Below, piece after piece: positions 49,239-53,005 of a stretch of 53,168 nt of DNA. The stretch is from contig JAFGKM010000083.1 of assembly GCA_016928555.1 (NCBI GenBank), positions 1 through 53,168 on the forward strand. Direction: 5' to 3'. The stretch comes from Candidatus Omnitrophota bacterium. GTDB lineage: Bacteria; Ratteibacteria; UBA8468; B48-G9; JAFGKM01. Position 1 is the first letter of the stretch, and each line of letters starts with the position of its first letter. A program made the position numbers and the translations under genes. Below the pieces are notes generated by a model, which ran no database searches, was not told where the DNA came from, and saw only the letters and a program-made list of their open reading frames with translations.

Positions 49239-49799
49239 ATGAAATCCCCGGGAAGATTGAAGCTGTGGATTGACAGGGAAATTCAACTGAAACTGGTCGT
49301 GTATGCGCTCGTATCTCTTGCCGTCGCGTGCGCAATAGTCAGCATAGCCTCTTTCTACATTATATGGAACGACGTTGCCGAAAGGGTTCTCCGCGCAGGG
49401 GAGTTTTCAAACCTATATGCCGCTTCTCTGAGAAAATTCACAATTTTCAACATTATCCTTATATTGTTCCTGGCGGTTCTTGTAACTCTGGGGATGCTTC
49501 TCCTTTCCCATAAAGTAGCCGGTCCCGCATACCGGATAAGAAAAATACTTAAGGACCTCCAGGAAGGTAAAAAGCCGGCTTTCTCTTTGCGGAAAGGGGA
49601 TTCCCTGAAACCAATGCTGGAAGAACTTGAAAAACTTTCCGCCCGTTATACGGATATAGGAGAAAGCGCCCTAAGCGTTGTTGAGCGGTGGAAGAACACC
49701 GAGGTTAAGGATATGAGTTTAACCCTTGCGCTGAAAGAACTTGAAAACAAGCTTGTTTATCTGACCGTCTCTCAGGAGAGGGAAGAGGAGAACAAATGA
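49239..49799 (+). CDS. Small two-helix membrane protein with HAMP-like region
   Basis: 186 residues. Membrane helices at about 17-42 and 66-90 with a short periplasmic loop (WNDVAERVLRAGEFSNLYAAS). The second helix is followed by LLSHKVAGPAYRIRKILKDLQEGK, the pattern of a HAMP linker, then a charged helical tail to the end. No kinase or output domain is present. It could be an accessory sensor or membrane anchor for the operon. Overlaps the next gene by four bases (ATGA). Confidence 0.7.
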   Translation: MKSPGRLKLWIDREIQLKLVVYALVSLAVACAIVSIASFYIIWNDVAERVLRAGEFSNLYAASLRKFTIFNIILILFLAVLVTLGMLLLSHKVAGPAYRIRKILKDLQEGKKPAFSLRKGDSLKPMLEELEKLSARYTDIGESALSVVERWKNTEVKDMSLTLALKELENKLVYLTVSQEREEENK

Positions 49800-50689
49800 G
49801 CGGGAAAAAAGGGTTTACCTTCATAGAAGTAGTAATATTCTGCTTTATAGCAATAACACTGCTTACTCTTGTCATCGGACTCGGGTTTAATTCGCGGGAA
49901 TTTGCAAGGACGATTGGATGCGTAAACAATATGAAGAATATTGCGCAGGCGGTTGAAAATTTCCAGGCGGACCACAAAACAACGCCTTCCAGCATCGCCG
50001 ATTTGTATCCTGCCTACATTGAAAGCGAGAAAGCATTGGTATGCCCCTCTGACAGGAAGTCAAACGGCAACAGCTACGACGCTTTTTACATCGGGCGGTT
50101 TATTGACGAAGGGGATGCCAACAAGATATTTCTCGCCTGCCCGCGCCACCACAGGAGAAGCAAAACCGTAGCCGCCTATCTTTCTTACGCAGTTGACATA
50201 GGGAGAAGCCAGAAGGTGCAGTGGAGCGGGACCAATGCGGAATTCGGGGAAGTGTACAGCGGCGGAGAGCTTTCATTTGCGGACGGCACCACAGTGCAGA
50301 TAAACTCAGGGAAGGTCGGGCTTCTTTCTTCTTTCGTGGACAACGAAAACAAAATCTACGGCATCGTATATACGCTGGACGGAGCGGAAAGCACGCTGAC
50401 GGTCACCCACGAGGGAGAATCAAAGTTTGAGATTATCACTCCTGCCGTCATCGCTGGAGTGGAAGGAACCAAGTTTGCCGTCCGGAACTGGCTGACCGAA
50501 AACAAGATACAATCTTACGTTTCCGTTTCTGATGGAGCGGTAGCCGTAGAAGACAGAAGCATGGATGTAAAAGCCTCTGTCGTTCAGCCGAACCAGGTAT
50601 TTTCTGTTGCCGTGCCGGTCGCTTTGGAAGATGCGGATTCAGTAAAAATAAGAAATAGAGTTCCCAGAAAACCGTCCAGGCGCAAATAA
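49796..50689 (+). CDS. Prepilin-like N-terminus fused to a FecR domain
   Basis: 297 residues. The start KKGFTFIEVVIFCFIAITLL is a prepilin signature with cleavage after Gly and Glu at +5. Residues about 40-110 (GCVNNMKNIAQAVENFQADH, LVCPSDRKSNG, ACPRHHR) resemble the pseudopilin head with its usual Cys pair. From about 145, GEVYSGGELSFADGTTVQINSG and FEIITPAVIAGVEGTKFAVR form a FecR-like domain, usually periplasmic. If both parts are real, a pilus-type protein displays a FecR sensor outside the cell. It lies between a HAMP-like protein and a CHASE2/HD-GYP protein. Confidence 0.75.
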   Translation: MSGKKGFTFIEVVIFCFIAITLLTLVIGLGFNSREFARTIGCVNNMKNIAQAVENFQADHKTTPSSIADLYPAYIESEKALVCPSDRKSNGNSYDAFYIGRFIDEGDANKIFLACPRHHRRSKTVAAYLSYAVDIGRSQKVQWSGTNAEFGEVYSGGELSFADGTTVQINSGKVGLLSSFVDNENKIYGIVYTLDGAESTLTVTHEGESKFEIITPAVIAGVEGTKFAVRNWLTENKIQSYVSVSDGAVAVEDRSMDVKASVVQPNQVFSVAVPVALEDADSVKIRNRVPRKPSRRK

Positions 50690-50710: not shown

Positions 50711-53005
50711 ATGAAACCAACCACTGTCATAAAACTTGTCGCGGGATGTTTGATTGCCCTCTCTGTCGGTATCCTCTTTTTAATCAAATCGTTTGAAAAA
50801 TCCGAGCTCACGCTGTATGACTGGCGTATTCACCGCTCATATGCGCCGCAGGCAATTCCGGTTCCCGTTGCAATAGTCGGGTTGACCGAACATTTTGAAT
50901 CAGACGTGGGAGAACCTTTTTCGCGCAAATTTTACACTCAACTGCTTGAAATTATGGAAAAAGAAGAGGCCTCCGTAGTGGGCTTTGATATCTTCTTCCC
51001 GCAGGTAACCGACAGCGCCGTTGATGCAGAGTTCATAAAAGCCATCAAAAAAAACGGCAAAGTCATACTTCCCGTCTTCTCTCCTACGCGGCTTACCGAA
51101 AGAAAAGGAGCGTTTTATCCGGCGCCTTCGGTGAGAGGGAGCTCCGAGGAATTTAATAATGCCGCCTTTTCGCTAGGGCATATAAACACGCTGTCAGGAG
51201 AGGACCAGGTTGTAAGAAAGATACCTGTATTTATCAAGGCGAAGGATACGGACTACCCCCAGATTTCCCTTGAAATGGCGAGGATTTATCAAAACCGGAA
51301 GGAAATAAGCGTACCTTTCAGGATAGACTCTCCGCTTGTCTCGTTCATCCCGGTAAGAGCAGACGGCAGTATATACATAAAACTTCTCCCGCCCGACGAG
51401 CTGGCAAAAAAGCACTTCATCTCCTTTGAAGACGTTATACTCGGCAGGTTCCCGGACGGTTTTTTTAAAAACAAGGCGGTTATCGTCGGGCAGACGATAG
51501 TAGGAGCGAAAAATGCAGACCTTGTCCCGACGCCGTGGGGAACGCAGTTCGGGGTCTTGCTTCAGGCGGGGATTTTGCACAACGTGCTTTCCGGGCAGTA
51601 TGTACACCGGATTGACGATAAAGCTGTCTTAATAGCGCTCTTGTTGCTCGGCTCCGTCCTGGGTATTATTGTATTCTCCAGCGGCGCCGCAGGCAATACT
51701 CTGTTGCTGGGGGGATTTTCGGCGCTGTCTGTTCTCTTCTCTTTTTATGCGATGAAACATGCCTGCCTTTTTATCGACATCGTCCCTTTCTTTTTCCTTT
51801 TTTTATTTCTTTATTTTGCTTCCCTCGTCTATTCTCTGGCGAAGGCCGTTAAACAGCTCTTCAGAAGAGAAAGCGCAATAAAAATCATGAGGGATGTTGA
51901 AAGAGAGATTACAGGCATTCTCAACCCTGCCGAGATTCCCGGCATTACGGGGGATTTTTCATCCTCGGTATGGGGAGGGTCCGTACTGATTGAACAGACC
52001 CCCGAAATAACCATGCGCACACTGCTTGTTTCTCTCGGCATTGAAACGGGAGCTTTTCTCCTTGTGCAAATTCCGGGAAAGCTTCAGATAATAGCACAGC
52101 ACGGAGAGCCGCTATTCAAGAAAATTGACATGGACAAGCTGACACGGAGAGTAATGGCGGCAAACCGTCCCGTAATGCTTAACCGCAACCAGCTAAAAAA
52201 CGAATGGGGAGCCGGAGCTCTGCGAAACCTGATACTTTTGCCCGTCATTGTGCAGCCTACATACAGGATATCTGGGCTTTTTATAAATAAATACCCCGCC
52301 CCATTCTCAAAATCCTCTCATTTCTCAAGAGACGACATACCTCTAATCCATACCCTTTCCATGCAGGCACTGATAGCGATACAAAACGCCCGTCTTAACC
52401 TCGCTCTGAAAGACACGCAGATGGAAAGCATTTTCCGTCTGTCCGTGGCAATTGAATACAGGGACAGGGAAACAGGCATGCACATACACCGGGTGAGCGA
52501 ATATTCAGGGCTCATCGCGCAGAATATCGGATTAAAGAAAAGCGAGGCGGAACTGATAAAAAGCGCCATGCCTCTGCACGACATAGGAAAGATAGCAATC
52601 CCGGACCATATCCTGCTTAAGCCGGGGAAACTTACCCCAGAAGAAAGAAAAATAGTCGAACAGCATCCCATAATAGGCGCCAAAATGCTTGAAGGCTCGG
52701 ATTCCCTGCTGTTGCAGGTATCGGGAACAATCGCCCTCTACCATCATGAAAAATATGACGGCTCGGGATACCCCTTTCACCTGAAAGGCGTCGGCATACC
52801 GCTTTACGGCAGAATTGCGGCTATCGCGGATATTTTTGACGCAATCTCCTCAAAGAGGGTGTACAAAAAGGCTGAGAGCATACAGACCGGGTTTGCCTTC
52901 GTCAGGGAAGCGTCCGGGACAATTTTCGACCCGCTGATGACAGAAGCTTTCATCAGGCAGGAAGAGGAAATTAAAAAGATACGTGATAAGTATAAAGACG
53001 TATAA
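50711..53005 (+). CDS. CHASE2-HD-GYP signalling protein (putative cyclic-di-GMP phosphodiesterase)
   Basis: 764 residues. Helix about 7-26, then a CHASE2 extracellular sensor (about 27-290: LTLYDWRIHRSYAPQAIP, VVGFDIFFPQ, FKNKAVIVGQT). Several membrane helices (about 297-380), a GAF-like region (about 400-560), and a C-terminal HD-GYP domain. The last carries PLHDIGKIAIPDHILLKPG near residue 620 and HHEKYDGSGYP near 677, the full metal and GYP motifs for cyclic-di-GMP hydrolysis. CHASE2 and FecR domains often occur together, fitting the upstream gene. Ordinary start; gap 21 nt. Confidence 0.93.
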   Translation: MKPTTVIKLVAGCLIALSVGILFLIKSFEKSELTLYDWRIHRSYAPQAIPVPVAIVGLTEHFESDVGEPFSRKFYTQLLEIMEKEEASVVGFDIFFPQVTDSAVDAEFIKAIKKNGKVILPVFSPTRLTERKGAFYPAPSVRGSSEEFNNAAFSLGHINTLSGEDQVVRKIPVFIKAKDTDYPQISLEMARIYQNRKEISVPFRIDSPLVSFIPVRADGSIYIKLLPPDELAKKHFISFEDVILGRFPDGFFKNKAVIVGQTIVGAKNADLVPTPWGTQFGVLLQAGILHNVLSGQYVHRIDDKAVLIALLLLGSVLGIIVFSSGAAGNTLLLGGFSALSVLFSFYAMKHACLFIDIVPFFFLFLFLYFASLVYSLAKAVKQLFRRESAIKIMRDVEREITGILNPAEIPGITGDFSSSVWGGSVLIEQTPEITMRTLLVSLGIETGAFLLVQIPGKLQIIAQHGEPLFKKIDMDKLTRRVMAANRPVMLNRNQLKNEWGAGALRNLILLPVIVQPTYRISGLFINKYPAPFSKSSHFSRDDIPLIHTLSMQALIAIQNARLNLALKDTQMESIFRLSVAIEYRDRETGMHIHRVSEYSGLIAQNIGLKKSEAELIKSAMPLHDIGKIAIPDHILLKPGKLTPEERKIVEQHPIIGAKMLEGSDSLLLQVSGTIALYHHEKYDGSGYPFHLKGVGIPLYGRIAAIADIFDAISSKRVYKKAESIQTGFAFVREASGTIFDPLMTEAFIRQEEEIKKIRDKYKDV

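Follow-up and report, generated by a model that had tools for sequence, protein, structure and literature searches.

A pseudopilin-FecR fusion protein encoded in a conserved cassette with a HAMP-like protein and a CHASE2/HD-GYP receptor in a Candidatus Omnitrophota bacterium

The window (the whole stretch of DNA that was analysed, 53,168 nucleotides of a Candidatus Omnitrophota contig) carries near its end a cassette of three genes. The middle gene encodes a protein in which a pseudopilin is joined to a FecR domain. The features of the cassette are as follows.

49239..49799, + strand: cassette gene 1, a 186-aa protein with two transmembrane (TM) segments and a HAMP-like cytoplasmic segment, lacking an output domain (hydropathy, orthologues, model)
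49796..50689, + strand: pseudopilin-FecR fusion protein, 297 aa (open reading frame, Pfam, NCBIfam, alignment, model)
49796..49813, + strand: prepilin leader MSGKKG, with the predicted prepilin-peptidase site between G6 and F7 and with E11 as Glu+5 (invariant residues in orthologues)
49820..50215, + strand: alpha1 helix of the pilin together with a compact globular pseudopilin part, residues 9-140 (DUF1559/GspG matches, alignment, model helix)
50267..50542, + strand: FecR domain, residues 158-249, core motif FEIITPAVIAGVEGTKF (Pfam, family search, Foldseek)
50711..53005, + strand: cassette gene 3, a 764-aa CHASE2 receptor with HD-GYP output (Pfam, motifs, hydropathy)

The fusion protein begins with MSGKKGFTFIE, a short basic class III leader followed by a Gly-Phe site and a glutamate at position 5 of the mature protein. 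G6, F7 and E11 are invariant in an alignment of 18 orthologues, in agreement with the prepilin leader recognized in the original prediction. Hydropathy places a TM segment at residues 9-27. Pfam gives a DUF1559/SBP_bac_10 match at residues 34-66 (E 6.1e-6), and DUF1559 is detected in 17 of the 18 orthologues; the NCBIfam match to GspG (E 3.6e-4, under the cut-off) spans residues 5-101. The N_methyl profile is sub-threshold in the window copy (13 bits against a Pfam cut-off of 21.2) and lies above it for the relatives L062 and L145, while in the copy from genome G240 both N_methyl and FecR exceed theirs. The pseudopilin domain extends over about residues 1-140 and is of the GspG/DUF1559 type. 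Thus the pseudopilin backbone of the original prediction stands, but its label "H-type" was loose, because the resemblance is not to the GspH family, and the motif quoted there as CNNMKNIAQA actually reads CVNNMKNIAQA.

The conserved features of the pilin half are C42, CPxD (83-86), SY..FY and CPRH (115-118). C83, SY..Y and CxRH show no variation among the 18 orthologues, nor does Glu+5. An essential metal or redox site formed by C42, C83, C115 and H118 was considered and dropped: the G240 copy lacks the conserved cysteines of the pilin half, and such a site is therefore not claimed. By its leader, Glu+5 and alpha1 helix this half is a prepilin or pseudopilin whose processing is predicted. It shares these features and the CPxD and CPRH motifs with the DUF1559/GspG-type pseudopilins, but differs from them in having an extra FecR domain and in being encoded outside a pilus or secretion operon. 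When the pilin half is searched alone, about 30 weaker pilin-like matches are found elsewhere in the source genome. Many pilin-like N termini are usual for bacteria rich in DUF1559 pseudopilins.

The C-terminal half had been called FecR-like, a claim that was to fall if profile searches found no FecR there. Profile searches bear the claim out: Pfam finds FecR (PF04773) at residues 158-249 (E 5.2e-7; score 30.5 bits, cut-off 24), and a family search places it at identical coordinates. The profile is detected in all 18 orthologues with an E value of 0.01 or better. An NCBIfam match to the FecR-bearing leptospiral protein Lsa33 covers residues 158-264 (E 2.4e-8, under the cut-off).

An AlphaFold2 model of the fusion protein, calculated from 16 sequences, has a mean pLDDT of 86.7 and a pTM of 0.82. 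It consists of a long helix (residues 9-60), short helices and then beta strands from residue 111 to 274. When compared with the PDB by Foldseek, the model had four matches at E values of 0.001 or lower, all of them FecR-family structures (E 6.6e-5 to 1.2e-4, probability 1.00), among them the CSS domain of PupR (6ovk) and the putative anti-sigma factor BDI_1681 of Parabacteroides (4m0h). A sequence-profile search of the PDB reached nothing beyond the N-terminal helices of pilins. The model confidently combines a pilin helix with a FecR beta structure, and together with the Foldseek matches it shows two halves of the kind originally proposed.

The stop codon of gene 1 overlaps the start of the fusion gene by 4 nt (ATGA). 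The gene 1 product has predicted TM helices at residues 19-37 and 72-90, and its model, of moderate confidence, contains helices at 4-53, 59-108 and 124-152. Its orthologues share the invariant patterns AGP..R....G...P and ..RK.D. Pfam gives no HAMP match for the window copy, which is hence named HAMP-like only; a homologue in G262 matches positions 1-52 of the 53-position HAMP profile (E 0.0022, 18.7 bits against a cut-off of 25). A profile search of gene 1 against solved structures gave nothing reliable.

Gene 3 starts 21 nt downstream of the fusion gene. According to hydropathy and Pfam, its product has a TM segment at residues 7-25, a CHASE2 domain at 18-319 (E 2.5e-37), three C-terminal TM segments, a linker and an HD-GYP domain (HD_5, E 8.3e-32). 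The CHASE2 region lies between the first TM segment and the C-terminal TM cluster in the hydropathy profile, and the FecR domain of the fusion protein comes after the pilin helix. Both catalytic motifs of the receptor are intact (HDIGK at 623, HHEKYDGSGYP at 678), and to judge from its sequence this membrane receptor probably breaks down c-di-GMP. The linker of the homologue in G240 contains a GAF domain. The second HD-GYP motif is altered in three relatives (G014, G017 and G019). The motif is HHERYNGSGYP at the locus L048 of G014; in the CHASE2/HD-GYP genes at L054 (1545-3899) and L055 (1577-3895) it is HQERYDGSGYP, the second His being replaced by Gln.

The order HAMP-like protein, pseudopilin-FecR, CHASE2/HD-GYP receptor is kept in 18 of the 20 loci compared (the window and 19 relatives). 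The HAMP-like gene adjoins the fusion gene in 19 of them, the exception being L062, where the match lies about 1 kb upstream. The receptor is missing from two loci: in G026 the contig ends there, and in G006 the gene was lost or never present. The whole cassette also occurs in G240, the genome of another phylum. G262 has a pair formed by a HAMP-like gene and a long-tailed pseudopilin-FecR gene, as well as a lone copy of the latter, with no adjacent CHASE2 gene. Taken over all these loci, the HAMP-like and fusion genes thus form the tightest pair, and since the G006 and G262 copies lack an adjacent CHASE2/HD-GYP gene, the receptor may be optional or located elsewhere. The cassette had been overlooked in the original prediction. 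It gives a pointer to function.

On the opposite strand the neighbours are a release-factor-like and an exonuclease VII-like open reading frame, named by reading their sequences, and the cassette neighbours in the relatives are of the same type. Within the window, no pilus operon adjoins the cassette. Neither a sigma-factor gene nor a gene for a TonB-dependent receptor was found in the cassette. This bears on the idea that the protein regulates an ECF sigma factor across the membrane in the manner of FecR; the FecR profile and fold would speak for such a role, PupR and BDI_1681 being the top structural matches. Like the FecR/PupR anti-sigma regulators, the fusion protein has a FecR fold in its periplasmic half (Foldseek probability 1.00). 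However, only the six residues MSGKKG precede the membrane helix, leaving no cytoplasmic, sigma-binding domain; a pilin helix is present instead, and the cassette has no sigma factor or TonB-dependent receptor. Such a role is exceedingly improbable, and regulation of the FecI/FecR type was ruled out by topology and neighbours.

The fusion was found in 21 of the 35 genomes of the phylum that were searched, and in 18 of these it is full length, that is, it covers at least 284 of the 301 profile positions. The remaining three copies reach contig ends (G026 and G023) or are split by a frame change (G014). The split gene lies at 7073-7961 of L048, the frame change being near residue 205. Among 386 genomes of other groups, full fusions occur in G240 (one) and G262 (two); G240 is the only one of nine genomes of a second phylum to have it. 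One of the G262 copies (L143, 6350-8044), 564 aa in length, bears an extended tail that is rich in Ala, Gln and Asn and looks like a coiled coil. A pattern scan of genome contigs found this lineage only, with patterns specific to the FecR motif of the family and not to all prepilin-FecR fusions. Orthologues in public records come from metagenome-assembled genomes, most of which carry the title Candidatus Omnitrophota or unclassified bacterium. Plasmid-borne spread was considered and set aside, no plasmid match having been found. Orthologues in other phyla and in 21 of the 35 genomes searched within the phylum ruled out a chimera or assembly error; with 18 full-length copies and a confident model, the fusion is far beyond chance.

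Across the phylum a FecR gene lies within 5 kb of 32 of the 38 CHASE2 genes, and the cassette itself has the conserved adjacency of a FecR gene and a CHASE2 receptor gene that identifies a FecR-CHASE2 signalling module. The cassette-borne CHASE2 domains group in a single clade (SH-aLRT 99), to which G240 is sister (83), apart from the CHASE2 domains of cyclases. An association of the latter kind is found on contig 72 of the same genome (L063, 14107-18426), where a GAF histidine kinase, a CHASE2 adenylate cyclase and a fusion of FecR to T2SSG are encoded in a row. In this second fusion FecR (94-195) and T2SSG (283-367) are both over their cut-offs, and the N terminus has no prepilin leader. FecR-T2SSG fusions occur beside a CHASE2 protein in at least four further genomes (G002, G006, G017 and G021). 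FecR and a pseudopilin-type domain have consequently been joined in two ways, each beside a different CHASE2 enzyme.

Other FecR and CHASE2 arrangements were seen in the same survey. L038 (1051-2541, contig 51 of the same genome) encodes a LysM-FecR protein whose C-terminal part is fibronectin-type III-like, and has no CHASE2 gene within 5 kb. At L152 (3873-7454), L162 (4006-7587) and L151 (4204-7791), the gene for a protein of about 1190 aa separates a FecR gene from one for a larger CHASE2 protein of 852-864 aa, which in the L152 copy has an HD-GYP-type C terminus.

The linkage bears on whether the fusion protein might be a structural or adhesive minor pilin, with the FecR-like domain as a tip or surface module and the CHASE2 gene nearby through co-regulation only. 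The best NCBIfam matches, Lsa33 and LipL45, are annotated as leptospiral surface adhesins or lipoproteins, both far under cut-off, and the G262 copies, one with the coiled-coil-like tail, have no CHASE2 gene next to them. Nevertheless, FecR is tightly linked to CHASE2 genes throughout the phylum and, according to the parts of the literature consulted, in other phyla, and the window has no adjacent pilus genes, so that a purely structural role is unlikely.

FecR-CHASE2 signalling modules have already been described, and the FecR half of the fusion protein belongs with them. In Burkholderia and relatives a LysM-FecR protein is encoded beside a CHASE2 histidine kinase in one operon (BiofilmReg), and the signals sensed by CHASE2 domains are stated to be unknown (PMC5192318). 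The likeness lies in a periplasmic FecR protein encoded beside a CHASE2 membrane receptor; there, however, a signal peptide precedes a joined LysM and FecR, the receptor has a histidine kinase as its output, and the sections of the report that deal with the operon describe no pilin domain or HAMP-like protein (PMC5192318). In M. xanthus a FecR lipoprotein shares an operon with the HD-GYP enzyme PmxA (PMC8844925). As described in that account, pmxA likewise belongs to a three-gene operon that combines a FecR protein with an HD-GYP cyclic-dinucleotide phosphodiesterase, but the FecR protein is a lipoprotein and the middle gene encodes a LysM/fn3 protein (PMC8844925). In the Campylobacterota a CHASE2 adenylate cyclase clusters with a phosphodiesterase, a FecR outer-membrane protein and a TPR protein (PMC9239204). 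Here too a CHASE2 receptor is recurrently clustered with a FecR protein, but the output is a cyclase, FecR is described as an outer-membrane protein and the relevant part of the text has no pilin domain (PMC9239204). In magnetotactic bacteria a CHASE2 cyclase follows MtxA, which is not called FecR in the pertinent passage (PMC4439547).

A precedent for inner-membrane pilins that control a membrane sensor comes from P. aeruginosa, where pilins regulate inner-membrane sensors (PilA with PilS, and the minor pilins and PilY1 with FimS-AlgR; PMC5979040). That system differs in that, in the part of the source concerned, the sensors are histidine kinases, FecR and CHASE2 are absent, and contact is proposed within the membrane with no dedicated periplasmic domain (PMC5979040). 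The original prediction knew of no characterized protein with the domain pair, and the literature search agrees: none of the passages retrieved describes FecR on a prepilin or pseudopilin, FecR with either term giving unrelated co-mentions (e.g. Kuenenia). The pseudopilin-FecR cassette adds a new architecture to the FecR-CHASE2 signalling modules.

Since the FecR partners of CHASE2 or HD-GYP proteins elsewhere are LysM, lipoprotein or outer-membrane proteins (PMC5192318, PMC8844925, PMC9239204, as far as these describe them), the anchor seems exchangeable. The pilin part could then be a mere inner-membrane anchor that replaces a lipoprotein or Sec signal and never enters a filament, the protein being a tethered FecR ligand of CHASE2; the roughly 30 pilin-like N termini in the genome would have been available for the recombination. 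This is a possible, though less than probable, account. Against it, the invariance in 18 orthologues goes beyond the leader to Glu+5 and the globular pilin motifs, and in the FecR-T2SSG fusion, which is unrelated, FecR is attached to a globular pseudopilin domain without any prepilin leader at the N terminus. Because these motifs are kept and the second fusion exists, a role for the pilin fold itself is favoured.

The preferred reading is that the pseudopilin-FecR protein is the periplasmic partner of the adjacent CHASE2 receptor and that it is tethered or polymerized by the pilin machinery, in this way controlling c-di-GMP hydrolysis; its probability is put at roughly one half. A prepilin peptidase would remove the six-residue leader. 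The alpha1 helix would then hold the protein in the inner membrane, or would let it join the base of a type IV pilus or type II pseudopilus, so that FecR and CHASE2 would come to lie side by side in the periplasm. The receptor might change its state when FecR binds, is displaced or is simply present, which in turn would set, in one direction or the other, the activity of the cytoplasmic HD-GYP phosphodiesterase on c-di-GMP. The translationally coupled HAMP-like two-helix protein would likely serve the fusion protein as a membrane scaffold or signal adaptor.

The source genome encodes a prepilin peptidase and three GGDEF proteins, and all five PilB/GspE-type ATPases scanned in it carry MshEN, a known type of c-di-GMP receptor. 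Because of these MshEN domains, pilus or secretion motor activity is one possible target, through a presumed link to pili. As the fusion is nearly always found beside a probable c-di-GMP-degrading receptor, it probably links the cell envelope or the pilus machinery to c-di-GMP.

The outputs driven by CHASE2 receptors in many bacteria include kinases, cyclases and c-di-GMP enzymes. With two distinct FecR-pseudopilin fusions beside two distinct CHASE2 enzymes in one genome, the finding goes beyond a single curiosity. It can tentatively be extended to the view, on balance a doubtful one, that FecR-joined pseudopilins are a dedicated relay by which CHASE2 receptors are informed of the state of assembly of a pilus or of a secretion pseudopilus. 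A pilin-FecR subunit would either remain in the membrane, free to bind CHASE2, or be drawn into the filament, and this switch would govern the output of c-di-GMP (HD-GYP) or cAMP (adenylate cyclase). Two architectures of the relay, at least, would have arisen: one pairs pseudopilin-FecR with CHASE2/HD-GYP, and the other pairs FecR-T2SSG with CHASE2/adenylate cyclase. The fusion is more interesting in the context of its cassette than alone; the cassette offers a concrete hypothesis, testable with small soluble domains, that CHASE2 reads a FecR domain whose position would depend on the pilus machinery.
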